A DNA stretch of 40,178 bases, taken from assembly GCA_030378105.1 (NCBI GenBank), contig JAUCGL010000024.1, positions 1 to 40,178 on the forward strand, read 5' to 3'. This document shows, piece after piece, positions 22,801-40,178 of the stretch. The translations under genes were made by a program, and so were the position numbers. Every line of letters starts with the position of its first letter. Position 1 is the stretch's first letter. This DNA comes from Candidatus Halobeggiatoa sp. HSG11 (GTDB taxonomy: Bacteria > Pseudomonadota > Gammaproteobacteria > Beggiatoales > Beggiatoaceae). The notes beneath the pieces were generated by a model. The model made no database searches. It was not told the DNA's origin and worked only from the letters and a program-made list of their open reading frames with translations.

Positions 22801-23205
22801 TTGAAAGAAGTAAAAGTTTTTGCCTAAATCATGAAATAAAGCGGCAAGTTTATTGAGGTAAGCGAGGAATTTTATAATGTTACGATATTGTTCACTTAAA
22901 TTCATATCATATTTTTTTGGATTTTCAGTATAACGAAATGCGAAATTACCATCTTCATCAAATTGTTTACGACTACCAACAATCCATTCTAATTCAATCT
23001 GATGGCGATTAATTACTCGATGGCAAGCTATAGCTGTATTTTTATTGGCAATGGCATTTAATTCATCTTGTAAATGTTTAAGCCCTTCTTCGGTAAGATT
23101 ACCTAACCAAGTACGTCTTCCAATATTACGCAAATATTTTGACAAAATACGCCGACTAAGAATAGCTGCTTTTTTGTGGCTTTCGCTAATAATAATAACA
23201 TTCAT
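19894..23205 (-). CDS. cas2-3: Cas2-3 fusion, type I-F nuclease-helicase
   Basis: A 1103-aa protein with the fusion that defines type I-F. Residues 1-95 are a Cas2 domain (RRTWLGNLTEEGL, NTAIACHRV, WIVGSRKQF). An HD nuclease follows with HD at 125-126, H153, HH 226-227 and D326. The SF2 helicase has Walker A AKTGTGKT (436-443), DEID (602-605), SAT (633-635) and QTVGRILRHR near 875. All key nuclease and helicase residues are present, so it should be active. It unwinds and degrades DNA bound by Cascade, and its Cas2 part holds Cas1 dimers for spacer capture. It overlaps cas1 by four bases (ATGA). Confidence 0.96.
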   Translation of the reverse strand: MNVIIISESHKKAAILSRRILSKYLRNIGRRTWLGNLTEEGLKHLQDELNAIANKNTAIACHRVINRHQIELEWIVGSRKQFDEDGNFAFRYTENPKKYDMNLSEQYRNIIKFLAYLNKLAALFHDLGKNFYFFQNKLLKGKTGKDASDPYRHEYLSLLYLFTIYDYKPDSYQEQLQQLKQNIDQLDHSKNIQQALNTEKLISSIFNNPNSKYAILKAISHLIISHHRLLRGKKNGNSIKADSKNHKKFYAKDETEPEREKLFKPYKNQHFVLEQSDWKAQFNYTVDGLLKVYQENQQQLDELIQDHDLFMNLIHYILRPALIMADQSVSAQDSKVDLETRQNSDENPIANLKNKENKQTLEEHLIQVAQQSYQNTKVLLHCLWSNQNLYTIDIPKKLIKPSPRTKPQFLWQNAAVNAIKTIDQSSSFGFFGVVMAKTGTGKTRLNAKLLAAFNQPLRFTTLLGLRALTVQTLEEYQNDLDIKNGIVRIIGDNATLALHKAHTDEDKKNKEDDGIDSDTSNLQEFYNESNLLNVTELKQLQVDTDFPEELCFSSQRDTKLDKISQAPVVVATIDYLINGINAWKSSKSRYLTRLMTSDLIIDEIDSYQQDDLISIHKLCYLTGFYGKKLIISSATIPEILIGTLYNAYQTGYCRYAYLSDKPNKIHLGLFSHHDNLNKIYPNDSSINSEINQYIQELYLAIEQEATKRKATMLDISDYLHSENHPPEFHHQLIESMRECHKNNHTIIDGIKISTGLVKFSNTMDCFEVAKFLLSLPEPELEEKLQAVIKIECYHSRHFPIRRAYVERQLNQLLNRKNIKDFKNNHLVQDAIEQAKSNNYSNIMLVIVSTTIIEIGRDFDFDWGIIEPASHWSIVQTVGRILRHRELYDKNNVMLLSHSMKAVRKPKTKKYYYRYPGPEDEEDKLKQDKKDKLNLDEKEKEQNIKQLFDFDKFSQKIDSRVTLTDGNADLAIKRIEDKQIHNLRDDDKILSFNSYLNNATEYLTTANSDARPFRQSNIKENVYRQDENGNWHKRDAKTYKFGTENCNNEFKENDIVINEERLLIKETLEEIEEIYKEKFDIELARDITVSDKKDNKYNEFLGVL

Positions 23206-24083
23206 TTTTCTATCAATTGTTTCATGCAGTTAAATAGCACATCTAAAGTTTTAGAGTTATTAAATTCGGCAATACAGCGTTTACGCATTTTATTTCTGGG
23301 TTCATCATTTTTGGCATAAGACATAGCAACTGGCATAACAATACCATCTTTAATAACATCAGCAAGGTCAAAAACTAAAGCTCCACGCCGAGTTGCACCG
23401 TGACTTACAGCCATGCTGTGCGGAATACCCAAAACCCACAAGGTAACAGCAGCCAATCCATAAGCTAAATATCTTGCATGATCTAAGTAGCTATTGAATA
23501 CATCTGTTTCATCTTTTTTGCCGGGTTTTCTGGTAAATTTTTCGATATTAAGATGTTTAATTTGAACGGCATAAAGTTTTTTAGCATAATTTGCTTCGTA
23601 ACCACGTAACTGTTCATTATCTTTAGCTAATTTTATTTTTTGCTGAAAAGTTTCTCCGGCAGCAATTACTGCCTCAAGTTCAATATTAAGTCGTTGCCAT
23701 TGTTTTTCAACAAAATTAATACGCTGTAGCTGTAATTGCTTTGCCATTTCAAGGCATTGTATTGGGTCTTGCCATTTCTTTAGATAAGCGAAAAAATATT
23801 CATTAGGGCGATATTCACTTTGAGAAGCAAGATATAAGGGAGTGCCACCGCCACCAACTACTGCTAACATAACTCCATTTTCTGCCATGATACGCATGGC
23901 TGCTTGGGTAATTGATGTACCAGTTCCCATTAAGATGATATTTGTGTTAGCAATAGGCAGGCTTAAATACTGGGTTATGCCTTTTTTTGCTTGATTGTAG
24001 ACAATTTTTTCATCAACTTGAGAAATACGGCAATATTCAAGATAGTACATTCCAGTACGTTTGCTGGGCATAATAGCTATCAT
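23202..24083 (-). CDS. cas1: Cas1, type I-F spacer integrase
   Basis: A 293-aa protein matching I-F Cas1 closely: LPIANTNIILMGTGTSIT, VVGGGGTPLY, SEYRPNEY and LAYGLAAVTLWVLGIPHSMA. The catalytic metal ligands are Glu163 (in YEANYAKKLY), His228 (AVSHGATRRG) and Asp242 (FDLADVIKD). It inserts new spacers at the leader end of the array with Cas2-3. Met5 at 24071 is an alternative start. Unusually it lies downstream of the array and away from the effector genes; a mosaic of repeats separates it from the last CRISPR repeat and presumably holds its promoter. Confidence 0.96.
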   Translation of the reverse strand: MIAIMPSKRTGMYYLEYCRISQVDEKIVYNQAKKGITQYLSLPIANTNIILMGTGTSITQAAMRIMAENGVMLAVVGGGGTPLYLASQSEYRPNEYFFAYLKKWQDPIQCLEMAKQLQLQRINFVEKQWQRLNIELEAVIAAGETFQQKIKLAKDNEQLRGYEANYAKKLYAVQIKHLNIEKFTRKPGKKDETDVFNSYLDHARYLAYGLAAVTLWVLGIPHSMAVSHGATRRGALVFDLADVIKDGIVMPVAMSYAKNDEPRNKMRKRCIAEFNNSKTLDVLFNCMKQLIEK

Positions 24084-24098
24084 AATTTTCTTATTTGA

Positions 24099-24355
24099 GT
24101 TTTTCTCGTCCCAACCTCTTGGTTGGGAATGCCTTCTGCAATGCTCTGCGTTGCGGGACGCAGAGCGTCCCTGACTGTATTCTCAACGAGACGTTGGGAA
24201 CGAGATATAAATATATTATGTAGGGTGGGTAGTAACGAAGTGGAAACCCACCGAACCTTCAAAATGGTGGATTTCATTTCATTCTATCCACCCTACATTT
24301 GTTACTTTTGACTTAATGTATAACGATGAGACGGGACATTGGGAACGAGATAACA
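24099..24355. repeat. Repeat mosaic between cas1 and the array, with a nested MITE B
   Basis: A GGGAACGAGA-type palindrome (from TCTCGTCCCAACCTCTTGG near 24102 to GTTGGGAACGAGATA near 24205) is followed by MITE B (24219-24297, ends TGTAGGGTGG and CCACCCTACA). A second GGGAACGAGATA lies at 24341. MITE B recurs, truncated, inside 33257-33408. Confidence 0.7.
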
Positions 24356-24360
24356 ATATT

Positions 24361-24846
24361 TTTCTAAGCCACCTAGTTGGTGGATAACCATACCAATTAC
24401 AATTTCTAAGCCACCTAAGTTGGTGGATAACATGATTTTCACCTTACTCATAAAGCCTTTCTAAGCCACCTAGTTGGTGGATAACCATACCAATTACAAT
24501 TTCTAAGCCACCTAGTTGGTGGATAATATCACCCGGTACAAAAATGAACTCAATCCAATTTTCTAAGCCACCTAGTTGGTGGATAACCATACCAATTACA
24601 ATTTCTAAGCCATCTATACGATGGATAACAGAATTTTCACCTCGCTCATAAAGCCTTTCTAAGCCACCTAGTTGGTGGATAACAGAATTTTCACCTTGCT
24701 CGTAGAGCCTTTCTAAGCCACCTAGTTGGTGGATAATTCAACCATTAAAATTAAGCAACCAAATTTCTAAGCCACCTAAGTTGGTGGATAACAGAATTTT
24801 CACCTTACTCATAAAGCCTTTCTAAGCCACCTAGTTGGTGGATAAT
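24361..24846 (-). repeat. Leader-distal block with variant CRISPR repeats and short recurrent spacers
   Basis: Repeats start at 24361, 24403, 24458, 24500, 24560, 24602, 24656, 24710, 24764 and 24819. Except for 24602 they have stem CCACC/GGTGG with loop AACTA (AACTTA, 29 nt in all, at 24403 and 24764). Three repeats (24500, 24710, 24819) begin with A instead of G on the transcript. Spacer lengths left to right are 14, 26, 14, 32, 14, 26, 26, 26 and 26, with 32 after the tenth repeat. The 14-nt spacer is the same three times (24389, 24486, 24588). Four 26-nt spacers (24432, 24630, 24684, 24793) are diverged copies of one sequence. Confidence 0.95.
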
Positions 24847-27007
24847 AACCTAAATAACAAACTTGTCAAGTTTAAATTTTTCTAAGCCATCTATACGATG
24901 GATAACATCATAATGTAAGCTTTGATACAATTTTAAGCTTTCTAAGCCATCTATACGATGGATAACTAGCGTTTAGTACTTTAGAGCTTATTAAATTTTT
25001 TCTAAGCCATCTATACGATGGATAACGATACTTTTGTGGCTCATTTGTTGTTTTTAATTTTCTAAGCCATCTATACGATGGATAACTCAAGAGGTTTATG
25101 GCTGATTGGAATACATACTTTCTAAGCCATCTATACGATGGATAACCTGCATATTTAGCCATTGCAGTGTTACGAATTTTTCTAAGCCATCTATACGATG
25201 GATAACATTATACAATGGCCATATTCTGCGTGAATAGTTTTCTAAGCCATCTATACGATGGATAACTATTGATGCCGTCCGTATTCCATTCTGTCCTCTT
25301 TCTAAGCCATCTATACGATGGATAACTTGTTTTAAAGCGGGTGGTAAATTCCATCTATTTTCTAAGCCATCTATACGATGGATAACGGTATCTGGAGTGG
25401 CTGGTATCTGGAGTGGCTTTTCTAAGCCATCTATACGATGGATAACTATAACATCTATTTCCAACTTGACGACAATATTTTCTAAGCCATCTATACGATG
25501 GATAACGTGGAACTAGAAAATTAACGATAACATGGAAATTTCTAAGCCATCTATACGATGGATAACAACCTGCTGAAAAAGGCGAGGACGGTGGTTTATT
25601 TCTAAGCCATCTATACGATGGATAACGAACGAAGCTATAAAAGATGCGTTGGATGTTTTTTCTAAGCCATCTATACGATGGATAACACCTGTCAATGAAA
25701 GTTTATTAGATAACTTTATTTCTAAGCCATCTATACGATGGATAACATCTGTTTTTTAGTTGGAATACTTGACCGAATTTTCTAAGCCATCTATACGATG
25801 GATAACATAACATCTAAATTCCATCTCATTAAAATCAATTTCTAAGCCATCTATACGATGGATAACAGGCTTTATAAAATGAAGAAAGTTATTTTAGTGT
25901 TTCTAAGCCATCTATACGATGGATAACCTTAATGATAGTAATCTTAGTATAGAAGACTTTTTCTAAGCCATCTATACGATGGATAACGCTACAAAGATAG
26001 TCGTGGTTTTTTAACTTGCTTTCTAAGCCATCTATACGATGGATAACAGTCCACTGACTGGACACAGATTACAGGAATTTTTCTAAGCCATCTATACGAT
26101 GGATAACACCACACAAACATAAAACGTGTGGAAATATTTTTTCTAAGCCATCTATACGATGGATAACCAAAAACAGCTATAATCTTCGGCTGTTTTGTCT
26201 TTCTAAGCCATCTATACGATGGATAACCAAGCGTTGAAAATTATCAAATTGCTAGTATTTTTCTAAGCCATCTATACGATGGATAACGGGATTATCTGCA
26301 CTAAACAATTGACTCTCAATTTCTAAGCCATCTATACGATGGATAACGTTTGGCTACAAAAAACGCTATAATCTTGCGTTTTCTAAGCCATCTATACGAT
26401 GGATAACACACCGGCACACGTTGTTGGCATTGTTGACATTTTCTAAGCCATCTATACGATGGATAACGCTCCTTAATATCGTTTACAGTGCATAATCTAT
26501 TTCTAAGCCATCTATACGATGGATAACAAAACTGTAGTTATAAGAATCTATATTCGTATTTTCTAAGCCATCTATACGATGGATAACAGGGACGTAACAG
26601 AATAGTATGGAAACTAACTTTTCTAAGCCATCTATACGATGGATAACTGAAATATGCAGGAGTTGCTGTTTATCCTAATTTTCTAAGCCATCTATACGAT
26701 GGATAACTGAATGGTTATACACAAGTTTTAAGTTGCAAATTTCTAAGCCATCTATACGATGGATAACTAGATAGCATGGCATCTTATGCGGATAAGTCAT
26801 TTCTAAGCCATCTATACGATGGATAACTTATTGTACATAGTTTTGGCTTATCGTTTTCTTTTCTAAGCCATCTATACGATGGATAACGCTGATTGCAATT
26901 AAGATACTTTGTTAAATTTTTTCTAAGCCATCTATACGATGGATAACGATTTTTTCAACTCCAATCTCTATGCTTCCATTTTCTAAGCCATCTATACGAT
27001 GGATAAC
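24361..27007 (-). CRISPR. Type I-F CRISPR array, 46 repeats
   Basis: The array is transcribed on the minus strand, as shown by the repeat ending in the I-F 5' handle CTTAGAAA. The main repeat is 28 nt: GTTAT, stem CCATC, loop GTATA, stem GATGG, then CTTAGAAA. I count 46 repeats and 45 spacers. The 36 leader-proximal repeats (24879-27007) are identical, with 32-nt spacers apart from one of 33 nt (25867-25899). Nine of the ten leader-distal repeats carry a different stem and loop and have spacers of 14, 26 or 32 nt. The leader is at 27008-27165. The cleavage hairpin matches what Csy4-type enzymes recognise. Confidence 0.98.
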
Positions 27008-27165: not shown

Positions 27166-27711
27166 TCATGATTTTCTGAGCAAACCGTAGCTGTTAAATA
27201 TTTGTCTTACAAAATCATCACTTTTAACATGTATCGGTTTAACAAAAATTGTAAAACGTTTTTCTTTTGTTTTAATAACAAAATACTTTTTACTACCATT
27301 TTCTGCTTGCTCATTGTAATACTCAAGCAATTTTCGTCGCTTAGTTTCTACATCTTCAGCACTTAACTTAAACTCTTTTTTTATGTAACGTATTTGTTCA
27401 CGAACTTTGCGTTGAACATCGTAAATCGTTCGTACACGCTTACAAAGAGTTATTTCAGCATCAGCCTGCTCAAACTTAGCACTAAAAATATGCCGTCTGA
27501 CATCATGAACCAGTGCCTCATCCGCTAAAATTTGCTCTAACTCACTTAATTCACTTGCATAAAGCATAATCTTATCACGTTGAAAATATAAGCCAATATT
27601 GTTTTTATCATGCCGATGCAAATAACCGTGAATACGAGTCAGAGATTTATTAACAAAATAAGGCCCATCTTCTGGATCAGTCACTTCAAGAGTTAGTTTA
27701 TGAACTGACAT
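27166..27711 (-). CDS. csy4: Cas6f (Csy4), crRNA-processing endoribonuclease
   Basis: A 181-aa protein of normal Csy4 length. The likely catalytic His28 lies in RIHGYLHRHD, the place of the family's active-site His. A basic helix near residues 99-125 suits binding to the repeat hairpin, and the C-terminus has FTIFVKP followed by the conserved YGL (SYGLLRKS). It cuts after the hairpin and stays on the crRNA 3' end in the Csy complex. Its start shares one base with the csy3 stop (TAATG). The PWF-like end seen in some relatives is absent. Two hairpin types in the array and one in the guide upstream of csy1 are its expected substrates. Confidence 0.88.
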   Translation of the reverse strand: MSVHKLTLEVTDPEDGPYFVNKSLTRIHGYLHRHDKNNIGLYFQRDKIMLYASELSELEQILADEALVHDVRRHIFSAKFEQADAEITLCKRVRTIYDVQRKVREQIRYIKKEFKLSAEDVETKRRKLLEYYNEQAENGSKKYFVIKTKEKRFTIFVKPIHVKSDDFVRQIFNSYGLLRKS

Positions 27712-28742
27712 TATTTATCCTTACCTTTGCCAGAATAAACACCACCCCGAATAAAACAAGCCATTAAATAATGACCAGCACCCGAATTTCCTTCAATTCC
27801 CTTCTTCTCATCCAACAAACGATTAAGCATAGAATAAACACTATTATCTTTAATACTCGTACCAGTTCGATGTAATTTTTGATTCTTTTTATCCGGTCCA
27901 AAAGGATCAACAGGAATAGCATGAGTTGCATTTTCAGCATACCAAGTATCTATTGTGCGAATCGCATTACCAATCTTTTGACTATGAAAAGCCGCAACTC
28001 GTTTGCCATAACTGGAAACATCAAATAAAACCTTACTCTTAGTTTCTTTATCATCATTAACAAACTCTTGCGATGGATAAATCTCTTGTCCGTAGCCAAT
28101 TTTACCACTCGCCTCAACATAAATAACAACAGCATTATCCTTATCAAACAAAGCATTAGCAAATTGTTCAACAAAACCATCAAAAGCCTTTTGGTCTTGA
28201 CTTTTTTTGAACTTATCATCAAACCCAAAACCTAAATCAATGTTAAATTCATGTTTCTTCTCACCTATTTGCAGAGTTATTTGCCTATTTTCAGCATATT
28301 TATTCCGCCATAAAAATTTCCCGTTTACCAAGTTAGTCAAATAGCGATAGGCCAATAGTTTTCCACCAACTTCCGTTTTATAACGCTTAATAAACTCCTT
28401 AAAAATACCCAACGCATCAGGATTATTACTTATCACATCATCAAGTAACGAAGTGATTTTTAAATTGAACTTCAAACAATAACTATCATGTTCTGGCGGT
28501 AAAAAACAAGTATCAACAGTTTGAATATTAGAAGACACAGTTTGCTCTTTATTAGCATCCGAATCCTTCTTAGCCTTCTCACCTTCTTTCAGACTGCCCA
28601 ATGTACCAACCAAGCTAACTTCTTGTAACCTAACTGGTTTATTATCAGTTTTTTTATCCATACTATCAAAACTATAAAACAAACCATGACTTGGTGAAAT
28701 AGTACGAGTTATCGCATTAACTGATGGTAATTTAATAGCCAT
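27711..28742 (-). CDS. csy3: Cas7f (Csy3), backbone subunit of type I-F Cascade
   Basis: A 343-aa protein with strong Csy3 motifs: FLWRN (143-147), GYGQEIYPSQEF (216-227), FHSQKIGNAIRTIDTWY (252-268), and HYLMACFIRGGVYSG near the C-terminus. Six copies coat a 32-nt spacer, one per six nucleotides, forming the filament that holds guide RNA. AAGGAGT sits nine bases before the ATG, the best ribosome-binding site of the locus, as expected for the most abundant subunit. A MITE occupies the 157-base gap from csy2, so this gene and csy4 may depend on read-through or on a promoter in that gap. Confidence 0.96.
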   Translation of the reverse strand: MAIKLPSVNAITRTISPSHGLFYSFDSMDKKTDNKPVRLQEVSLVGTLGSLKEGEKAKKDSDANKEQTVSSNIQTVDTCFLPPEHDSYCLKFNLKITSLLDDVISNNPDALGIFKEFIKRYKTEVGGKLLAYRYLTNLVNGKFLWRNKYAENRQITLQIGEKKHEFNIDLGFGFDDKFKKSQDQKAFDGFVEQFANALFDKDNAVVIYVEASGKIGYGQEIYPSQEFVNDDKETKSKVLFDVSSYGKRVAAFHSQKIGNAIRTIDTWYAENATHAIPVDPFGPDKKNQKLHRTGTSIKDNSVYSMLNRLLDEKKGIEGNSGAGHYLMACFIRGGVYSGKGKDK

Positions 28743-28899: not shown

Positions 28900-29757
28900 T
28901 TAAAACTGCCCAACCTGTTTAACAAGATAACTATTATCAAGCATTTTAGCTTGCCAAAACAATTCATTAAAATCTTGTTGCCGATAATAAACTAATTCGT
29001 GCAAACCAATAATTGGCTCCGCAAATGCGTGAGGACAATCATCAACACGTACACCAATACGCTTTCTTGGATTTTCCAACAACTGATAACCGGATAAAGA
29101 AGCAAAATACCAACCTTTACGGCGTTTATACTGTTTCTTACCATTTTCATCAAGCTCAACAAAAGTAGCCAAAAAATTATTAAACGCCTTACTATAATTA
29201 GAGTTCTTTGCCTCCTCAACCAACTCATCAGTTGCATCTTGAACAAGCCAACCTTTTTCAGTTTTTAAAGCTTCTTGTAAATCTTTATCATTTTGATAAA
29301 CCTTAATATTATCATCTGCCATAACCTGAATATCACCACCAGCAAAACGATTGAATAACACAAATTTTCGGATATAGTCAATAAGAGATATTTCATCCGG
29401 TTCAGCAATATCTAAAGAAATAACAATTGTGTGTTGTAAACTGCCTTTTATTTCAGGTGGATTCATAGGAATATTCAAAGCTTTATGATTATTCTCATTC
29501 AAATGTCCGGCCAAACTAGCATTACCCTGATAAAATTCCAATTGCTTTATTATGCTAAAAACTTTCTCTGAACCAAGTTTAATAGCCCGATCTTCTCCAG
29601 ACAATTCATCTGGTTCTGGTAATTTTTTATCTAAATAACGAGCCAAATTATGAGCAAAACCAATATAAGCATTTTGGGATAAATCGGCGGTTAAATAACT
29701 GGAAGATAAATTGCAATTAATCACTTCCATGTTACGGTAAACAATATAAGTTGCCAT
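28900..29757 (-). CDS. csy2: Cas5f (Csy2), Cascade subunit at the crRNA 5' handle
   Basis: A 285-aa protein, slightly short for Csy2. Points of agreement with the family are GFAHNLAR near residue 33, RFAGGDI near 136, GWYFASLSGYQLLENPR near 216, and a C-terminal block with PIIGLHELVYYR. With Csy1 it grips the 8-nt 5' handle CUUAGAAA and the PAM end. It starts three bases after the csy1 stop and is followed by a MITE. Overall similarity to well-known Csy2 proteins is modest, so position in the operon adds to the call. Confidence 0.88.
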   Translation of the reverse strand: MATYIVYRNMEVINCNLSSSYLTADLSQNAYIGFAHNLARYLDKKLPEPDELSGEDRAIKLGSEKVFSIIKQLEFYQGNASLAGHLNENNHKALNIPMNPPEIKGSLQHTIVISLDIAEPDEISLIDYIRKFVLFNRFAGGDIQVMADDNIKVYQNDKDLQEALKTEKGWLVQDATDELVEEAKNSNYSKAFNNFLATFVELDENGKKQYKRRKGWYFASLSGYQLLENPRKRIGVRVDDCPHAFAEPIIGLHELVYYRQQDFNELFWQAKMLDNSYLVKQVGQF

Positions 29758-29760
29758 ATC

Positions 29761-31128
29761 TTAAAATCCTCCACCTAAAGTGATTTTCTGCTCAAACTGT
29801 AACCAAATCTCATCCACAATTTTATCGTGAATTTTTTCCCCAAATTTAGGCAACTTCTTAAAACTACTTTTCAGAGCCTCATAAAATGGAGCATATTTTT
29901 CATCTTTGTCCAATTTTATATTGTTGAAAAGTACAGCTTGATAAATCAATTTAGTTTCAGCAATTAACTGTTTCTTATCAGATTCATCAGCATTTTCATA
30001 ATGTTGTTGAATGCTATGTACTTGTTGCATCATACTGTTAATGGCCATATCAACCGCAATTTCTAAATGACGTTCCCTAGTTTTATTTGGCAATTTACTA
30101 TTTTCATAACCTGCAAGTTGTTTTTCTACGTCATCTTGTGTATCTTTATACCATAAAAAACGGCCAGTTTTATTAAGCATAAAAAGATAGCGTCTGGCTT
30201 GTTTTTTGGACTGTTTTGGAAACTTCATTTGAAACCGAGAATTTTGCCCGGCAACTTCACCAGTTGCAGTACCAGCATTACTTGGATTACTACCGCCAAG
30301 ACTTATATTTTTAAATTGATTGCTTTGATTTTTAACATAAAACCATTCTTTAGCACTAGCAGCAAATACCACTGGATTGATAATTGGAGTGATTGCAATA
30401 TAATCATTTTCACCATCAAACACTGGCAATAATATTTGTTTATCCATAACATGCAAACTTTCCACACAACTTGCTGTTTTACCAAATGCTTGTGTGAGTT
30501 TATCCTGCAATTGCTTAAAAGTTGGTTTAGAAATAACTTGCTGAAAAAACTGTTGAATTTGCTGACTATCATCACGATCATTTACAAGATGTTCAGCAAT
30601 ACTTGAACCATTGATACGAGTAATTAAACAAGCATAAAAAGCACTATCGGCATTAGTTCCACCACTGATACTTATTTTAGCAGTTGCATCCGACAATTGA
30701 TTGGCAGTAAAACCATGCTCACCTTGAGTTTGATTATCTGGTTCAGGACAAAACTGTACATTAGATAAAGTATTCAAAGGTTTGCTATGATAGAAACCAA
30801 GTTTATCTGCGGCATCTAACAGTTTTTTTAGCTTTTTATCAGTTGCAGTAAGCGGTTTAGGACTTTCATAATTGATTTCAATTTTATTCCAATTTGTTGC
30901 ATCTTCAGTCGTTGGTAAAATTATACTCAATTCAATCTCAAAAATTTTGGCACAAGTAACAGCAAGTATAGCCGTTATTTGGTCATTTTTTATCTTAATA
31001 TTACTGCGAGTATTTTTATAATATTTAATAAAATCATCAATTTTAATAGATTGTGATGTTCCATTGTACTTTGGTAACTGTGCCAAAGGAAAAATATTAT
31101 CACTTATTAAAAAATTAATTGTGGGCAT
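29761..31128 (-). CDS. csy1: Cas8f (Csy1), large subunit of type I-F Cascade
   Basis: A 455-aa protein in the first position of the csy operon, of normal length for Cas8f. The clearest motif is NISLGGSNPSN (274-284), which corresponds to the FGGTKPQNIS region of other Csy1 proteins. The rest is diverged and helical towards the C-terminus (about 345-455), where Cas8f has the bundle that recruits Cas2-3. Its job is to read the CC PAM and hold the 5' handle with Csy2. Only a weak ribosome-binding site (AGAGA) precedes the ATG. The 5' region is long and contains the target of the guide-like locus at 31501-31583. Confidence 0.85.
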   Translation of the reverse strand: MPTINFLISDNIFPLAQLPKYNGTSQSIKIDDFIKYYKNTRSNIKIKNDQITAILAVTCAKIFEIELSIILPTTEDATNWNKIEINYESPKPLTATDKKLKKLLDAADKLGFYHSKPLNTLSNVQFCPEPDNQTQGEHGFTANQLSDATAKISISGGTNADSAFYACLITRINGSSIAEHLVNDRDDSQQIQQFFQQVISKPTFKQLQDKLTQAFGKTASCVESLHVMDKQILLPVFDGENDYIAITPIINPVVFAASAKEWFYVKNQSNQFKNISLGGSNPSNAGTATGEVAGQNSRFQMKFPKQSKKQARRYLFMLNKTGRFLWYKDTQDDVEKQLAGYENSKLPNKTRERHLEIAVDMAINSMMQQVHSIQQHYENADESDKKQLIAETKLIYQAVLFNNIKLDKDEKYAPFYEALKSSFKKLPKFGEKIHDKIVDEIWLQFEQKITLGGGF

Positions 31129-31310
31129 GATTGGTTCTCTTGTAAATGATCTTCTAAACTAGAGATGTTTTCTCCATTGAAATGGGCAGACATTCTTAGT
31201 TCTTTATATTTCTCTTTCAAACTTGTATACTTTTTTGATAAGGCAATCTTGGCATTTATCAACTTGTTGGTTATCATTGGAATTAAAATTATTCATATTT
31301 TTTGCCTTTG

Positions 31311-31394
31311 AGTGTTTTAAACATTAATATTAAATAGGAACATTTTTTATTAACACAAGGGATATATTGATTTTTTAATTTATGTTATATTATA
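31311..31394 (-). promoter_or_regulatory. csy operon promoter region containing a partial protospacer
   Basis: On the minus strand a perfect TATAAT lies at 31394-31389. A second, weaker pair, TTGTGT (31358-31353) and TATTTA (31336-31331) with 16 bases between, lies closer to the gene. The bases 31336-31319 match the 31529 spacer at 17 of 18 positions and are preceded by CC (31338-31337). A bound Cascade would cover the second -10, or block elongation from the first promoter about 50 bases after its start. Confidence 0.6.
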
Positions 31395-31396
31395 GT

Positions 31397-31490
31397 CTAT
31401 AGCTTTTCAGATAAATATTTTCGCCAATAGACCTGACAGGTTTCGCAAACCTGTCAGGTCTTGGAACCTTTATTTTTTTGAAAAACTATA
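31397..31490. mobile_element. MITE F, copy 2, between the csy promoter and the guide locus
   Basis: The arms are CTATAGCTTTTCA and TTGAAAAACTATA; the core is AGACCTGACAGG...CCTGTCAGGTCT. It is the inverted counterpart of 15275-15367. Its right arm contains TTGAAA, the candidate -35 of the guide RNA. Confidence 0.85.
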
Positions 31491-31504
31491 AGAATGATTA
31501 TAAT
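31478..31504 (+). promoter_or_regulatory. Candidate promoter of the guide-like RNA
   Basis: TTGAAA (31478-31483) and a perfect TATAAT (31499-31504) are separated by 15 bases, two fewer than ideal. Transcription would begin near 31511, just before the stem half GATGG and the handle CTTAGAAA. Confidence 0.5.
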
Positions 31505-31583
31505 CTATCACTTAAGATGGCTTAGAAATATTTAATATCAATGTTTTTTTTAACCTCATCCACCAACTTAGGTGGCTTCCATT
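31501..31583 (+). ncRNA. Two-repeat mini-array upstream of csy1: putative autoregulatory crRNA-like guide (creR-type)
   Basis: The first repeat (31501-31528) is degenerate but ends GATGGCTTAGAAA, identical to the main repeat, with CTATC able to pair with GATGG. The spacer is 31529-31554 (26 nt). The second repeat (31555-31583) has an intact hairpin CCACC-AACTTA-GGTGG and CTT, exactly the 29-nt variant of the old array end; its last bases are replaced where repeat E begins. Spacer positions 1-18 (TATTTAATATCAATGTTT) match the csy1 upstream region except position 11, next to CC; positions 19-23 do not match. By analogy with creR guides in other types, Cascade would bind without cleaving and repress csy1. 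Seen: repeats, match, PAM. Inferred: transcription and function. Confidence 0.75.
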
Positions 31584-31681
31584 AAATTAAGGGCAACCAT
31601 AAAGGATTGCCCCTACATTATGTGTAGGGGTTATTTCTTATGGTTACATCCTAATCAATTTGCTTAACGCAAATGGCAGTG
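31579..31681 (+). repeat. Repeat E, copy 2, abutting the guide locus
   Basis: It starts CCATTAAATTAAGGGCAACC and contains CCCCTAC-ATTATGT-GTAGGGG followed by TTATTTCTT, which could serve as a transcription terminator for the guide RNA. It matches 19767-19845 inverted. Its first bases replace the last bases of the second CRISPR-like repeat. Confidence 0.75.
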
Positions 31682-31789
31682 ACCATTTTATTTAAATCAA
31701 TCAATATTTTAACTTGGTACACCTTATTAAATCCTGAAAATCCTAATTCTGACAAAAAATATCCTGTACAAAGCAACATCAGTTAAAAA

Positions 31790-33116: not shown

Positions 33117-33551
33117 TCGCTGCGAGACATGAAGAGGCGAAGCTGAAATCAAGTAGTCCGCAACTTGTGTGAAAGTTCTTAAATTTGAAGAAATAGTTTA
33201 ACCGAAGTAGCATTTCTTGAAATTTTGAACAAGCTGTTAAGTCATGGGGGAGTCGGCTCATAGTTACACACAAGCATTTAAGTACTTGAAATGAAATATA
33301 TTATGTAGGGTGGGTAGAAACGAAGTGGAAACCCACCGAACCTTCAAAATGGTGGATTTCATTCTACCTTTTTTGCTTGGGACTTATGTATAACAATGAG
33401 GGGGAATTGGTGGGACGGAGCTGCTTCAGTGCAGAGTCTCCCAATGAGACCTGACGTGTCGGGACAAGTAATAACAGGTTTCGCTGAAAAATTGATTAGT
33501 TCACGGGACATGAACGTTCCGTGGACATCATGAAATTTCTGCGAAACTCAT
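33117..33551 (+). repeat. Large repeat C, copy 3, split by an insertion
   Basis: It matches 7296-7576 from CTGCGAGACATG to CTGCGAAACTCAT. After GGGGGAGTCGG an insertion of about 150 bases (33257-33408) interrupts it, and the match then resumes at TGGGACGGAGCTGCTTCAG. Confidence 0.8.
33257..33408. mobile_element. MITE inserted in repeat C, containing a truncated MITE B
   Basis: The outer ends CTCATAGTTA and TAACAATGAG are near-perfect inverted repeats. Inside is TGTAGGGTGGGTAGAAACG...AATGGTGGATTTCATT, matching 24219-24297 but without its right end. The sequence after it, ACTTATGTATAACAATGAG, also resembles the right flank of the 24219 copy. Confidence 0.7.
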
Positions 33552-33610: not shown

Positions 33611-36600
33611 CTATCCAGCCAAAGCCTTATCAATCAAATCAAGCAACTCTGTTTCCTGATATGGTTTAGTTAAATAAGCACTCACTCCAGCACTTTTAGC
33701 TTGTTCTTTATGCTTTTCTGTTGTTCGAGAAGTAATCATAAAAATAGGTAAACTCTGGGTAGCTTGATTAGCTCGCACATGGGCTGTCAATTCCAAACCA
33801 TTCATGCGTGGCATTTCCATATCAACCAACATAACATCTGGCTTACTTTGATTCATTACTTCAATTGCTTCAACACCATCCTTAGCTAATAAAACTTCAA
33901 ATCCAGCATCTTCAACTAGCAACGATAAGGATTTCCGTACACTCAAAGAATCATCAACAATCATAATGTTAGGGATGCCAGAACTAGCTTCTTCATCCAT
34001 ATCCCCAGATTGTTCTACTGGTCGCATAGTAAATTTAGCTGGAGAACGTAATAGTTCGGGTATGTCCAGTAATGGCACTAAACTACCATCACCTAGGATA
34101 CTAGCACCTGATACACCACGTACTTCCTTAACATAATTTCCCATGTTTTTCATAACTAAATCATGAGTATCCATTAATTCATCTACTATCACAGCACTTA
34201 TACCAGTTTCTTCATGGACCAAAACAATAGGCCGTTCTTTTAACTCGTCAATTGCTTCTTTATCACCTTTAATATTTAACAAATTAGCTAAATATTTCAA
34301 CGCATATACATTTTTATCAATTTTTAAGCTAGTTTCTTCACCAACTTGATAAAATTCTGAAATTCCAGCAGCCAAAGCTCGTTCCAATGTATTACTTGGA
34401 ATTCCAAATCGAAAATCTCCTATCCGTACCAGCAAAACATGGACTGTCACCAAAGTCATCGGCAATTTAATCAACATGGTAGTCCCTTTGCCAGTTTCCG
34501 ACATCAAGTCTAACGTACCTTTCATATCACGAATACTGGTATGTACCACATCCATACCAACTCCACGCCCGGACATTTGCGTTACACCAGATTTAGTTGA
34601 GAAACCAGACATAAGAATTAATCGAGCCAGCTCTTTTTCAGATAGTTCTTGCTCCTCAGTTATTAAACCACGTTTAATAGCAGAATAACGAATATTGGTA
34701 TAATTTAAACCCTGACCATCATCTTGACATTTAACAACAATATTATTACCTTCCCTATAAAAACTTAGTTGGATATTACCTATTTCTGGTTTACCCAACA
34801 TAACCCGTTCATCAGTAGATTCTAAACCATGATCAATAGAGTTCCGTAAAATATGTTGTAATGGATCACCTAAGTTATTCACTACATCACTATCCATTAA
34901 AATATCAGTACCAGACACATTCAAATCAGCTTTTTTACCAGTAGAGCGACAAGTTTGACGTACATTACGTTGTAACTTAGATAATAAAGTACTAGCTGGA
35001 ACCATACGGGTAGTCATAATATTGGTTTGGAATTCTTTATTAAGACGTTCCTGCCGAATCAACATTGTGTCCAAATCAACCAAATCTTCTTGAATTGTCA
35101 TGGTTAATTCTCTGTTATCAGCAATTGACTCAATAAAACTATGAGCAACACTATGTAATTCGTTATATTCTTCAAATTCTAATGGATCAAAATTTTCGTC
35201 ATCTTTATTGACTTGCTCAACGTTGCTTCCCATCCCAGTTATACCACGTATATCAACTAAATTTTCTAATTCAAAAGTTTTTTCATGTAAAACCAAATCC
35301 TGTTCTGTTAATAAGCGAGTGCTTTGTACAACATGTCGCATTCGTTCTTGAATCTGTCCTAATGAAATTGACAACTCTCCTACCAACCGCATTAATTCAT
35401 CAACTGTTTTAGTTGGAACTCGCAAAAACTGTTCTACTTCACCAGTAGCTGCTGGTTTGGCGGCTTTCTTAGCTGGAGCTTTACTTTCAGTTTTAGCTGG
35501 AGCTGGAGTATCTGCGGCCGGAGTAACGGCTGGTTTAGTTGGAGCTGGTGGAGCATCAAGCTTGCCTTTGTCAATTCGATTCGCCCAATCTAAAACTGAC
35601 TGTAACACCTGTAAAGATTGTTCTGGTGCATCGTCTTGACCAAGTAGAAAATCAACCATCATTTCAAGACAATCGGCAGCTTCCACCATAGTATCGGTCA
35701 ATTCAGGTGGTGGTGTTACTTTGTGTTTAGCTAAATATTCTAAGGTATCTTCCAAATGGTGTCCCATACTGGCAATACCTTTGATGCCAATAATATTAGA
35801 CGAACCTTTAAGAGTGTGAGCAATTCGTTGAGCTCGTTCAATTTCAGATACATCAGCTCCTTGAATAATATTTTGAATTGCTTCAGAAAAATCTTGTGCA
35901 TGTTGTGGAGTTTCTTGTAAATAAGCTTCCAACAATTCGGGATTTATATCTTCAGGGATATTTAATGCAACATCTTCTGGAGTTGCTTGAGTTTGTCGAT
36001 TATTGGCTTCATCTTCTTCCTCTTCTTCGGCACTGGAACCAGCCATTAATTGAGTTGCTAAAACTTTAGCTGTTTCATCGTTTAAAGGCTGTTGCCAAGT
36101 AGATAATCTGAAGTAATCAACTAACGGTAATACACCAGTGGTTGGACTGGTAAAATATCCTAATAATACAGTTGGCCAACCTTCTAATACTGTTCTAGCA
36201 GTAGCACGTTTAGACATTTCTATAGTGCTGGTAGCCATAACATTATCAACAATAAAAGAGCAAACTGCTTGTAATCCTTCTAATCCAACCATTTCGGCTG
36301 CAACATTCAAACGCTGCACCTGCTCAGTATAATTCTCCACCGCTTCAGTATTATCTGAAGTCATGATCCGTTCAAGTTCCTTGGCTAAGTCTTCTTTAGC
36401 AAATTCAAGCTCTCCGGTTAAAATTTCAATAACTTCTTCGCTACCTAAAGAAATATCTTCATTGACTGTTATATCAAGTGGAGTTAAAACTTCAGTTACA
36501 GGAGCTTCTTGAATTTCTTGTGGAATGTCTTCAGTGGATAACGTTGCAGTTGGCTCTTCATTGGCAGCAGGAGTAGTTAGTGCAATTAATAACTTATCAC

Positions 36601-39600
36601 CAGCTTCTTGTTCAAGTGGATTAGGCCACGTAGATTCTTGTAAAAAACTAACTAATTCGGTAGCACCAGTTTCCGGAGTTGTCAAATATGTTAATACTTT
36701 ACCCGGCCAAGCAATGAACTGAGGTTGACTAGCAAGTTTATCATCCTGTTGACTGGCAAACATTAAATTATCATTAATAAAAGTACAAACCTCCTGCAAG
36801 CCACCAAGATTAGCCATTTCAGCTACATCCCAAATTTCTTGTACTTTATTTGTATATTCTTCAATAGCTTCTAACAAAGCCGGATTATCATTTTCCATGG
36901 ACATACATACCTCAAGAGCGGCTGATAACCCCTCTGTTGAATCAGTTATTTGACTACGCACCAACTCCAATATATCAGGTGCAGCCAATTTAATAATTTG
37001 TAAAGTTGGTATTAAATGCTGCTTAAGTTCTGCAACATTTTCTGGTGGTGTAGGCCATTGTTGTAAATGACTTAATAAAACATCCACTCCTTGATAAGGA
37101 GTCTGTAAATAAGTTATTACTAGCTCTGGCCAAGCTAATATTAATTCTTTGGCATTGTTTCTTGTTTCCGCCGACTGTCCGCCAAGCTCCATTATATTGT
37201 TATTAATGAATGTACAAATGTCTTGTAAGCCAGTCAAGGAAGCCATCTCAGCAACATCCCAAATTGATTGAACATATTCAGTATAAGTTGAAACGGCTAA
37301 TAGTAAATCCTCACCTTCAGCATCAATTATTTGATTAGCTGTAGTTGCAAGTTCTTCGTTAATGTCAATTATTTGCCCAACTATCAATTCAATAGTACCA
37401 GCTTCTGCTAAAGAAATTTCTTCTTTAACTTCTGTAGTTTCGGTTTCAACAGGCAATGATTCTTCTTTAGTTTCAGAACTTGGCAGTAATTTAGTTAACC
37501 ATTCAATTTCTGACTGTGACGGCCATAAAGCATCTTGTAAATGATTGATTAATGGTTGAGTTTGATTGGCTGGGTCTTGTAAATAAGCAATGGTTAGTAA
37601 TGGCCAAGCTGTTAATATTTCTTGAGTTTTATTTCTTTCTTCCAGCGATAAACCACCAAGAGCCATCACATTATCATTAACAAAAGTACAAACTTCTTGC
37701 AGACCAATTAAATTAGCCATATCCGCAGCATCCCAGATAGATTGGACTAATTCGGTATAATCTGACACTGCCATCAATAAATCATCAGCTTCAGAACTAA
37801 TTAATTTAGCTAAAGTTTCTGCTAATTCTTCTTCAATATCAACTAACTGTCCAACTAACAATTCAATTATATCTTCACTAGCTAAAGTGATTTTTTGAAT
37901 TGGCTCGGAAGTTATTTCCGGTTCAGAAACTATTGACTCAGGCAATGGTTCTTTTTCAGCTTCAGAACTTGGCAGTAATTTAGTTAACCATTCAATTTCT
38001 GACTGTGATGGCCATAGCTCATTTTGTAAATGATTGATTAATGGTTGAGTTTGATTGGCTGGGTCTTGTAAATAAGCAATGGTTAGTAACGACCAAGCTG
38101 TTAATATTTCTTGAGTTTTATTTCTTTCTTCCAGCGATAAACCACCAAGAGCCATCACATTATCATTAACAAAAGTACAAACTTCTTGCAGACCAATTAA
38201 ATTAGCCATATCCGCAGCATCCCAGATAGATTGAACTAATTCAGTATAATCTGATACTGCCATTAATAAATCATCAGCTTCAGAGTTGATTAATTTAGCT
38301 AAAGTTTCTACTAATTCTTCTTCAATATCAACTAACTGTCCAACTAACAATTCAATTATATCTTCACTAGCTAAAGTGATTTTTTGAACTTGTTCATCAG
38401 GAGTTTTTGCAACTAATGGTAAATCTTCTATTTCGGGAACAGGAATTTCTTCTTTTTTATTCTCATCCAGTATTGTTGCCTCCGATAAATCATCTTGCAA
38501 GTCAGGAATTGTCTCTGGTAAATCTAATGAATCATCTATTGATATTTGTGGTTCTTGTTCTTCCAAACTCTCATCATCAGAAATGATTTCATCAGGTATT
38601 GTTGCCTCCGATAAATTATCCTGCAAGTCAGGAATTGTCTCTGGTAAATCTAATGAATCATCTATTGATATTTTTGGTTCTTGTTCTTCCAAACTCTCAT
38701 CATCAGAAATAATTTCATCCGGTATTGTTGCCTCCGATAAATCATCTTGCAAGTCAGGAATTGTCTCTGGTAAATCTAATGAATCATCTATTGATATTTG
38801 TGGTTCTTGTTCTTCCAAACTCTCATCATCAGAAATAATTTCATCCTGTATTGTTGCCTCCGATAAATCATCTTGCAAGTCAGGAATTGTCTCTGGTAAA
38901 TCTAATGAATTATCTATTGATATTTGTGGTTCTTGTTCTTCCAAACTTTCATCATCAGAAATAATTTCATCCTGTATTGTTGCTTCCAATAAATCATCTT
39001 GCAAGTCAGGAATTGTCTCTGGTAAATCTAATGAATCATCAGTGATTATTTCAGGTATTTCTTCCAATTGAGAATCTTCTGAATTAATTAAATCATCTTC
39101 GAAATCTGGAATTGCAGTCATGTTTTTTAATGGTTCTGCCGAATCAGGCAATTCATTCAAAGTTTCTTCTGAGTCCACTAAATCATCTTGCAAATCCAAG
39201 TTATCTAAAGTTATCGTCGATTCTGTAGATAATTCTGTTTCTAAATTATCCATTTCAGAAATTTGGACTGTGTCTTCATTTAAATTTTCTGAATTTTCTA
39301 TATTGTTTTCAAATTCTTCCATAGTTGGAATTTCTATATTAGCTATATCATTGATATTTGTATCTTCAATTGTAATATTCTCTACAGAAAGCTCTTCGTT
39401 TTCTACAACTTCATCTGTGTCAAAATTTTTTTCCATCCCAGATACCAACTGTTCCATATCGTCACTGTCCATTATATCATCATCAATCTCAATTGCACTA
39501 ATACTACTCATAACTGGTAAAATAGGTAATTCCGCATTGGAATTAAAAGCTTGTTTTGGAGCATCAGATGTTAACGCTTCAATATCCGAAGCTATATCAA

Positions 39601-40178
39601 GACTTCCAGCAATAAGCGGCAAATCATCTTTAATTAAAGCTGTTATATCGAATATTTCAGATTCATTTAATAATTGAGTATATGAATTTTTAGGGGCTTC
39701 TGTTTCTGAAGTTACCATTTTATCAGCATTAATCGCTTGCTCAATTTGCTTAGATGATAGTTCAGATGCTATTTCCTGAATAGAAGTTTTATTTTCTTGA
39801 GTTTTTTTAATTTCTTGAAAGTTCTTATTTTCTTGAGAATCCTTACTTGCCGGTTTAATTGATGGTTTAACATTTTTAGTTTCAATAATTCCAACAGCAT
39901 AATCTTTAACAAGCTGAACTGATATATAATTAGCATGTTTTTTTGATGCAATAATTGGCCAATTATTTTTACAGATATATGCAACTATGTCTTTAGTTCC
40001 TGATTCTGGTGACAATAAATATTCTAATATTAAATGTGGCCACAAATTTAATTGATCATGCAATAATTTTTTTTCTGCTTTTGATTTAAAACTGCACTCA
40101 AATATATTGTCATTAATAAAAGTACAAATTTCACAAAATCCATTTAAACCTAATTCTTTGGAAAATTCCCATAGCTCT
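33611..40178 (-). CDS. Giant ChpA/PilL-like chemotaxis hybrid kinase, 5' end outside the window
   Basis: The frame is open to the right edge (2188 codons visible), so the start is not in the window. From the visible N-terminus there are a partial helical module, a long acidic linker with five 42-residue repeats, and five more helical modules of about 130 residues (GLQEVCTFVNDNVMA pattern). A true Hpt domain follows with AHTLKGSS (phospho-His codon at 35816-35818), then an Ala/Pro linker. Next come a CheA dimerisation domain, an HATPase (HILRNSIDHGLE, DDGQGLN, GRGVGMDVV), a CheW-like domain, and a receiver whose Asp codon is at 33821-33823 (LVDMEMPRMNG). Such kinases control type IV pilus motility. 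The six modules look like Hpt domains without the His. Confidence 0.92.
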   Translation of the reverse strand, partial: ELWEFSKELGLNGFCEICTFINDNIFECSFKSKAEKKLLHDQLNLWPHLILEYLLSPESGTKDIVAYICKNNWPIIASKKHANYISVQLVKDYAVGIIETKNVKPSIKPASKDSQENKNFQEIKKTQENKTSIQEIASELSSKQIEQAINADKMVTSETEAPKNSYTQLLNESEIFDITALIKDDLPLIAGSLDIASDIEALTSDAPKQAFNSNAELPILPVMSSISAIEIDDDIMDSDDMEQLVSGMEKNFDTDEVVENEELSVENITIEDTNINDIANIEIPTMEEFENNIENSENLNEDTVQISEMDNLETELSTESTITLDNLDLQDDLVDSEETLNELPDSAEPLKNMTAIPDFEDDLINSEDSQLEEIPEIITDDSLDLPETIPDLQDDLLEATIQDEIISDDESLEEQEPQISIDNSLDLPETIPDLQDDLSEATIQDEIISDDESLEEQEPQISIDDSLDLPETIPDLQDDLSEATIPDEIISDDESLEEQEPKISIDDSLDLPETIPDLQDNLSEATIPDEIISDDESLEEQEPQISIDDSLDLPETIPDLQDDLSEATILDENKKEEIPVPEIEDLPLVAKTPDEQVQKITLASEDIIELLVGQLVDIEEELVETLAKLINSEADDLLMAVSDYTELVQSIWDAADMANLIGLQEVCTFVNDNVMALGGLSLEERNKTQEILTAWSLLTIAYLQDPANQTQPLINHLQNELWPSQSEIEWLTKLLPSSEAEKEPLPESIVSEPEITSEPIQKITLASEDIIELLVGQLVDIEEELAETLAKLISSEADDLLMAVSDYTELVQSIWDAADMANLIGLQEVCTFVNDNVMALGGLSLEERNKTQEILTAWPLLTIAYLQDPANQTQPLINHLQDALWPSQSEIEWLTKLLPSSETKEESLPVETETTEVKEEISLAEAGTIELIVGQIIDINEELATTANQIIDAEGEDLLLAVSTYTEYVQSIWDVAEMASLTGLQDICTFINNNIMELGGQSAETRNNAKELILAWPELVITYLQTPYQGVDVLLSHLQQWPTPPENVAELKQHLIPTLQIIKLAAPDILELVRSQITDSTEGLSAALEVCMSMENDNPALLEAIEEYTNKVQEIWDVAEMANLGGLQEVCTFINDNLMFASQQDDKLASQPQFIAWPGKVLTYLTTPETGATELVSFLQESTWPNPLEQEAGDKLLIALTTPAANEEPTATLSTEDIPQEIQEAPVTEVLTPLDITVNEDISLGSEEVIEILTGELEFAKEDLAKELERIMTSDNTEAVENYTEQVQRLNVAAEMVGLEGLQAVCSFIVDNVMATSTIEMSKRATARTVLEGWPTVLLGYFTSPTTGVLPLVDYFRLSTWQQPLNDETAKVLATQLMAGSSAEEEEEDEANNRQTQATPEDVALNIPEDINPELLEAYLQETPQHAQDFSEAIQNIIQGADVSEIERAQRIAHTLKGSSNIIGIKGIASMGHHLEDTLEYLAKHKVTPPPELTDTMVEAADCLEMMVDFLLGQDDAPEQSLQVLQSVLDWANRIDKGKLDAPPAPTKPAVTPAADTPAPAKTESKAPAKKAAKPAATGEVEQFLRVPTKTVDELMRLVGELSISLGQIQERMRHVVQSTRLLTEQDLVLHEKTFELENLVDIRGITGMGSNVEQVNKDDENFDPLEFEEYNELHSVAHSFIESIADNRELTMTIQEDLVDLDTMLIRQERLNKEFQTNIMTTRMVPASTLLSKLQRNVRQTCRSTGKKADLNVSGTDILMDSDVVNNLGDPLQHILRNSIDHGLESTDERVMLGKPEIGNIQLSFYREGNNIVVKCQDDGQGLNYTNIRYSAIKRGLITEEQELSEKELARLILMSGFSTKSGVTQMSGRGVGMDVVHTSIRDMKGTLDLMSETGKGTTMLIKLPMTLVTVHVLLVRIGDFRFGIPSNTLERALAAGISEFYQVGEETSLKIDKNVYALKYLANLLNIKGDKEAIDELKERPIVLVHEETGISAVIVDELMDTHDLVMKNMGNYVKEVRGVSGASILGDGSLVPLLDIPELLRSPAKFTMRPVEQSGDMDEEASSGIPNIMIVDDSLSVRKSLSLLVEDAGFEVLLAKDGVEAIEVMNQSKPDVMLVDMEMPRMNGLELTAHVRANQATQSLPIFMITSRTTEKHKEQAKSAGVSAYLTKPYQETELLDLIDKALAG
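38471..39100 (-). repeat. 126-bp tandem repeats in the acidic linker
   Basis: Five units with a period of 126 bases (marked by TATTGTTGC at 38471, 38597, 38723, 38849 and 38975) encode a 42-residue acidic repeat with LDLPETIPDLQDDL. Copies differ by a few bases only. Confidence 0.92.

Follow-up and report, generated by a model that had tools for sequence, protein, structure and literature searches.

Standalone repeats and mini-arrays that partly match cas promoters, that of cas8 above all, are said to be conserved among the CRISPR-derived regulatory elements of Shmakov et al. (NAR, 2023, doi 10.1093/nar/gkad495), who reportedly also tested an I-F1 mini-array. These mini-arrays, the I-F1 one included, reportedly resemble the element treated here in their partial matches to cas promoters. 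CreR autorepression has been published for the subtypes I-B, I-E and V-A (PMC13131331). Reviews describe CreR as a mini-array near the cas operon with a spacer partly complementary to the cas control region, for which autorepression is predicted (PMC13131331, PMC12737573), with relief once crRNAs or anti-CRISPRs take up the complexes (PMC12737573, PMC12948488, PMC13131331). For type I-F, CreA guides that use a CC PAM have been published (PMC10097628). The I-F CreTA of Acinetobacter has a mini-ORF in the gap between cas3 and csy1; it lies behind a CC-flanked target and runs divergently to creA. The spacer there has 20 nt, the mini-ORF 33 bp (11 codons), and creT is toxic (PMC10097628).

The contig of Candidatus Halobeggiatoa sp. 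HSG11 analysed here (JAUCGL010000024.1, 40,178 nt; the whole stretch is called the window) carries a type I-F locus on its minus strand. PADLOC assigns csy1 (cas8f, 29761-31128; Cas8f, E 7.7e-11), csy2 (cas5f, 28900-29757), csy3 (cas7f, 27711-28742; also above the NCBIfam cut-off) and csy4 (cas6f, 27166-27711; Cas6f, E 6.4e-6), the presumed guide-processing enzyme. A CRISPR array of 46 repeats (24361-27007) follows with its leader end by csy4, and then cas1 (23202-24083) and cas2-3 (cas3f, 19894-23205), both found by PADLOC and NCBIfam. Csy1 is divergent, and an NCBIfam search gave no match for it.

Divergent to csy1 and before tilS, the plus strand holds a mini-array of two repeat-like units and a spacer (31500-31583). 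The first unit, R1 (31500-31528), is a degenerate I-F repeat recognised by its sequence, by a hairpin in the predicted fold and by its alignment in a second genome. Its stem (31505-31509/31516-31520, CTATC/GATGG) encloses a 6-nt loop (31510-31515) and is followed by an intact handle of 8 nt, CTTAGAAA (31521-31528). Directly behind lies the spacer, i.e. the guide, of 26 nt (31529-31554), a length shared with the second genome, and then R2 (31555-31583), a degenerate repeat that keeps a stem (31560-31564/31571-31575, CCACC/GGTGG) and has lost its handle. The initial annotation had described two degenerate repeats divergent from csy1, with a 26-nt spacer straight after a perfect handle, and the sequence bears this out. 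Both units are kin to the repeat of the system itself, as expected for a CreR-type guide: the window contains 47 copies of GGCTTAGAAA, of which 46 belong to the CRISPR array and one to R1, and the R2 stem-loop (CCACC AACTTA GGTGG) is identical to that of variant repeats lying at the array's far end, whose handle is missing from R2. The predicted fold includes the two hairpins and scores modestly better than shuffled sequence (z -1.95). The mini-array does not qualify as a canonical CRISPR array, its repeats being degenerate and its spacer 26 nt long as against mostly 32 nt next door. An Rfam search gave no match at the mini-array, the array repeats alone appearing as CRISPR-DR4 below the gathering score. 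Solitary repeat-like units are also a feature of Racrs, the RNA anti-CRISPRs (PMC10651486), which are phage-encoded, whereas the window's element belongs to a host cas locus and carries a guide that matches this locus itself. An identity with Racrs thus fails, as the mini-array sits between csy1 and tilS in a host locus and not on a phage or mobile element.

What this guide would recognise lies in the leader of its own operon. The spacer TATTTAATATCAATGTTT agrees at 17 of 18 positions with CC-TATTTAATATTAATGTTT on the minus strand, with the target at 31336-31319, the CC, i.e. the I-F PAM, 5' of it at 31337-31338, and the only mismatch at position 11. This confirms what had been read from the letters at first, namely that spacer positions 1-10 and 12-18 match this target behind a CC and that positions 19-23 do not pair. 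A partial match of the spacer to the control region of cas, beside a fitting PAM, is also a mark of CreR-type guides. As the region is AT-rich and contains the promoter-like TATTTAATAT, the resemblance of guide and target, both AT-rich and next to a stray repeat, might be due to chance, a reading that we regard as exceedingly improbable. When 31129-31498 was shuffled 20,000 times with its dinucleotides kept, the best CC-flanked match averaged 9.7 of 18 positions, and 17 was reached in none (0/20,000). A search of the 5.2-Mb genome with CC and 17 defined bases, allowing up to two mismatches, returned only the target (no mismatch) and the mini-array itself (two mismatches). One point in favour of chance is that the same pattern read backward as a control also finds one place in the genome; the shuffles, the dependence of the matches on the PAM and the mirrored changes described below all speak against it. 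The match of spacer and target is confirmed as first described.

The decisive support for an autorepressor guide comes from comparison with a second genome. We searched 42 genomes of the order for csy1 and for the mini-array. A csy1 of this kind was present in two of them, the genome of the window itself and a Thiomargarita sp. MAG (G012; 77% identity), and only these two gave a strong hit to the mini-array (E 1.5e-6 in G012). As the E threshold of the mini-array search was 10, each of the 42 genomes yields some hit, the next after G012 being one of 27 AT-rich bases at 3.5e-4. In G012 the mini-array lies on a separate contig whose end overlaps that of the csy1 contig by 25 nt, and the small ORF ahead of csy1 continues across the join. 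The joined leader aligns with that of the window from this small ORF through R2, except for a MITE-like insertion in the window, and the mini-array takes the same divergent place relative to csy1. As had been proposed at the outset as a check, the alignment covers the handle, both stems, the spacer, the target and the CC, all of which are present in G012. Here the guide TGTTTATTATTTCATTTTGATTT matches its own target CC-TGTTTAATATTACTTTTAGATTT at 14 of 18 and at 19 of 23 positions, position 7 of the seed being mismatched. Shuffles reached 14/18 in 81 of 20,000 cases and 19/23 in none of 20,000, the count over 23 positions having been picked after the pairing was seen.

Over positions 1-18 the window and G012 differ at four positions in the target and at seven in the spacer. 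Three of the four target changes (positions 2, 13 and 15) are mirrored in the spacer, which was equalled in 1,175 of 200,000 random placements. Own spacer/target pairs agree at 17 and 14 of 18 positions, crossed pairs at 13 and 12. The stem of R1 has changed on both sides, from CTATC/GATGG in the window to CTACC/GGTGG in G012, and the stems of both units are kept; in either genome the handle is perfect in R1 and lost in R2, as would be expected from selection on a guide cut by Csy4. The guide measures 26 nt in both, one six-base step below 32. The fold of the G012 element is less distinct from shuffles (z -0.98), and R2 is not in its centroid. Conservation of the pairing in relatives, a further mark of CreR-type guides, was thus found in one relative, the comparative test resting on G012 as the relative whose csy1 leader was readable; the guide/target pair is known from two genomes.

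Further relatives were searched as follows. In L057 (Thiotrichaceae, csy3 70% identical) a tRNA-Ser lies upstream of csy1, and no mini-array was found there; in G020 (csy3 33%) no strict repeat occurs upstream of csy1. In a MAG that bears the title Bacteroidales, one contig (L056, DAOVUO010000331.1) carries a csy operon with a Csy3 85% identical to that of the window, probably through a binning error. This contig ends within csy1, and the best match to the leader in that genome (E 4.4e-4) comes without a repeat. A Csy1 search of 369 genomes of the class returned only the window's own genome, G012 being outside that draw, and one of a plasmid collection gave no match.

From these observations we consider it likely that the mini-array is a creR-like autorepressor guide for its own I-F operon, as the initial annotation had suggested; the mirrored changes in G012 and the CC-flanked match support this. 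We infer the following course from the parts of the locus. The mini-array would be transcribed divergently from the csy operon, and Csy4 would cut past the stems of R1 and R2 to yield an RNA that resembles a crRNA, its 5' handle intact, its guide 26 nt long and its 3' end a hairpin. Loaded into the Csy complex, this RNA would bind the csy leader by way of the CC PAM and about 18 bp, a pairing presumably too short or too interrupted for cutting by Cas2-3, so that the complex would stay on the DNA and dampen transcription of the small ORF and of csy1-csy4. The brake would lift once Csy complexes are claimed by crRNAs or anti-CRISPRs.

The point of attack appears to be the leader rather than a promoter. 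In G012 a near-consensus promoter, TTGACA-17-TATATT (11/12; L053 136-108), lies upstream of the target, which begins (L053 78-53) about 25 nt past the expected transcription start, the start itself being inferred; judged from this arrangement, the target position is that of a road-block in the leader. A weaker promoter candidate (9/12; L053 154-183) precedes R1 in G012. The initial reading of a guide aimed at its own operon is supported, while the site called a promoter is better called the csy1 leader, as it lies downstream of the promoter-like site in G012. A consensus promoter scan of the window reported none on the plus strand for the mini-array and none for csy just upstream of the target, and the candidate promoter whose -10 element had been placed inside R1 was accordingly not recovered. 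Compared with the CreR guides of I-B, I-E and V-A, the locus shares the mini-array near the cas operon and the partial match to the cas control region, and it differs in belonging to type I-F and in that the leader, past the promoter as judged from G012, holds the target; it is known here from sequence.

Short dispersed, partly palindromic, MITE-like repeats of two families, both with many copies in the genome, occur next to the mini-array. One (31398-31490) lies between mini-array and target and is absent from this place in G012; the other (31576-31684) begins directly after the R2 stem. In a repeat search of the genome, in which 40 of 575 candidates were scored, all 67 of the 67 other matches listed fall in these two stretches. 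The insertion beside the mini-array, together with the lack of a recognised promoter, means that the window's copy might be weakened. Both features would also suit a guide in decay, one that served as an autorepressor in an ancestor and was inactivated here by the neighbouring insertions, which abut it on both sides (31398-31490 and from 31576). A dead guide would be expected to drift, however, whereas the first 18 positions pair better in the window (17/18) than those of G012 do (14/18) and R1 has a perfect handle, so that we hold decay to be quite improbable.

Between target and csy1 lies a small ORF of 30 codons (31204-31296, minus strand), seen in three-frame translations. Its frame is broken in the window, with related residues spread over two frames. 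The counterpart in G012 comprises 62 codons in one frame, contains a CxxC motif, lies between target and csy1 and overlaps the csy1 start; a Pfam search of its product gave no family above the cut-off. Given this layout, a CreTA-like (CrePA-like) function has to be weighed, in which the guide, as a CreA, would mainly repress a small ORF of which the product or the RNA becomes harmful once the Csy complex is lost, making the CRISPR system addictive. In the Acinetobacter I-F CreTA, the arrangement of mini-ORF, CC-flanked target and cas3-csy1 gap is as here, and the two loci also have in common two degenerate repeats, a CC PAM before a partial target, divergent orientation, a short spacer, a small ORF downstream of the target and a partial match over some 17-18 positions, theirs without positions 6, 11 and 18 and the window's without 11 (PMC10097628). 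The residues of the small ORF are moreover recognisably related in the window and G012. The Acinetobacter spacer is shorter (20 nt vs. 26 nt here) and the mini-ORF measures 33 bp (PMC10097628). In the window csy1 follows directly. The overlap of the 62-codon ORF with csy1 in G012, which points to joint control of both, the broken frame in the window and the absence of a Pfam family above the cut-off for the G012 product argue against the addictive function, and we regard it as unlikely. It is similarly doubtful, perhaps slightly more so, that the guide governs, beyond csy1-csy4, above all a hitherto unnoticed small CxxC protein whose ORF heads the csy operon and overlaps csy1 (open in G012), in which case the brake would couple autorepression with an addiction or accessory factor. 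The autorepressor reading remains the one that we prefer.

The array itself shows some features of its own. Its far end (24361-24860, minus strand) contains variant repeats, three copies of one 14-nt spacer, four spacers of 26 nt that are related to one another and a further one of that length, while nearly all remaining spacers have 32 nt; the lengths 14, 26 and 32 lie whole six-base steps apart. With CC in front, the 14-nt spacer (among the spacers at 24602-24402) has one exact match in the genome and three with one mismatch, the backward control giving none. These four places (L153-L156, on contigs C90, C82, C276 and C305 of G000) lie inside a PC(N/S)WYG motif in long ORFs whose translations resemble leucine-rich-repeat proteins, and the ORF at L155 matches Pfam LRR and PKD models. 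The matches may be due to chance or may mark short regulatory guides; the ORFs are paralogues, so that the four are not independent. Compared with the window, the array spacers gave one weak match (spacer 38, 19/26, without CC), and the 26-nt family, searched against the genome with up to three mismatches, matched the array alone. A 70-nt direct repeat, 99% identical, flanks the CRISPR locus (24209-24278 and 33294-33363, 9 kb apart), and an ORF of 2150 aa (33611-40063, minus strand) has long internal repeats, including a 126-nt unit repeated at 38332-39087.

To survey other I-F loci we applied a strict search (5-bp stem, loop of 4-6 nt, C[TA][TA]AGAAA, up to 700 nt upstream of csy1). The first set consisted of the best 80 of 544 confirmed loci, and csy1 was located in 76; L055, which is identical letter for letter to the G012 csy1 contig, offers 162 nt upstream, csy1 is cut by the contig end in L056 and L099, and the ORF taken as csy1 is short in L117 and L119. 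A strict repeat was found in 14 of the 76 loci (from the best 80 of 544), each with a CC-flanked match of 14-18 of 18 positions. Spacer shuffles reached the observed value in 0 of 200 cases in 12 of the 14 and in 1 of 200 in L060 and L096. Ten of the 15 other dinucleotides were tried in place of CC, and the best match was lower with each. The second set comprised 31 of 32 other genomes with csy3 (G271 excluded) plus G020, csy1 being located in 29 of the 32. Six of the 29 had a strict repeat, with matches of 13-16/18 and shuffles at 0/200 in five and 1/200 in L173; in L164 the best other dinucleotide gave 15 vs. 16 with CC. By an exact-stretch test one locus belongs to both sets (L160 = L063), a negative one. 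The second hairpin (R2) of L132 gave no match, its 9/18 being the same as for shuffles. Mismatches of the surveyed guides often fall at positions 6, 12 and 18. These are the positions that are flipped out in type I complexes. Some of the surveyed targets may be CreTA-like, and not all need be cas promoters; that of L107 adjoins its own R1 and may reflect a local direct repeat.

A hint in the initial annotation that the element is of an undescribed kind did not hold, since an I-F CreA (PMC10097628) and CreR (PMC13131331) are in print and many I-F loci are alike. Our literature search returned no paper on this mini-array guide in relatives of Thiomargarita. The element extends a known kind and is a well-supported further case of a probable self-regulating I-F guide, which would carry RNA-guided self-regulation of I-F CRISPR-Cas to the family of the giant sulfur bacteria. 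Guide and target have here evolved in a mirrored fashion, a clean case that provides evidence for selection on the pairing itself. The survey suggests that, by strict criteria, about one in five I-F loci has such an element (14/76 from the best 80 of 544; 6/29), and control of cas dosage may be a common trait of subtype I-F.
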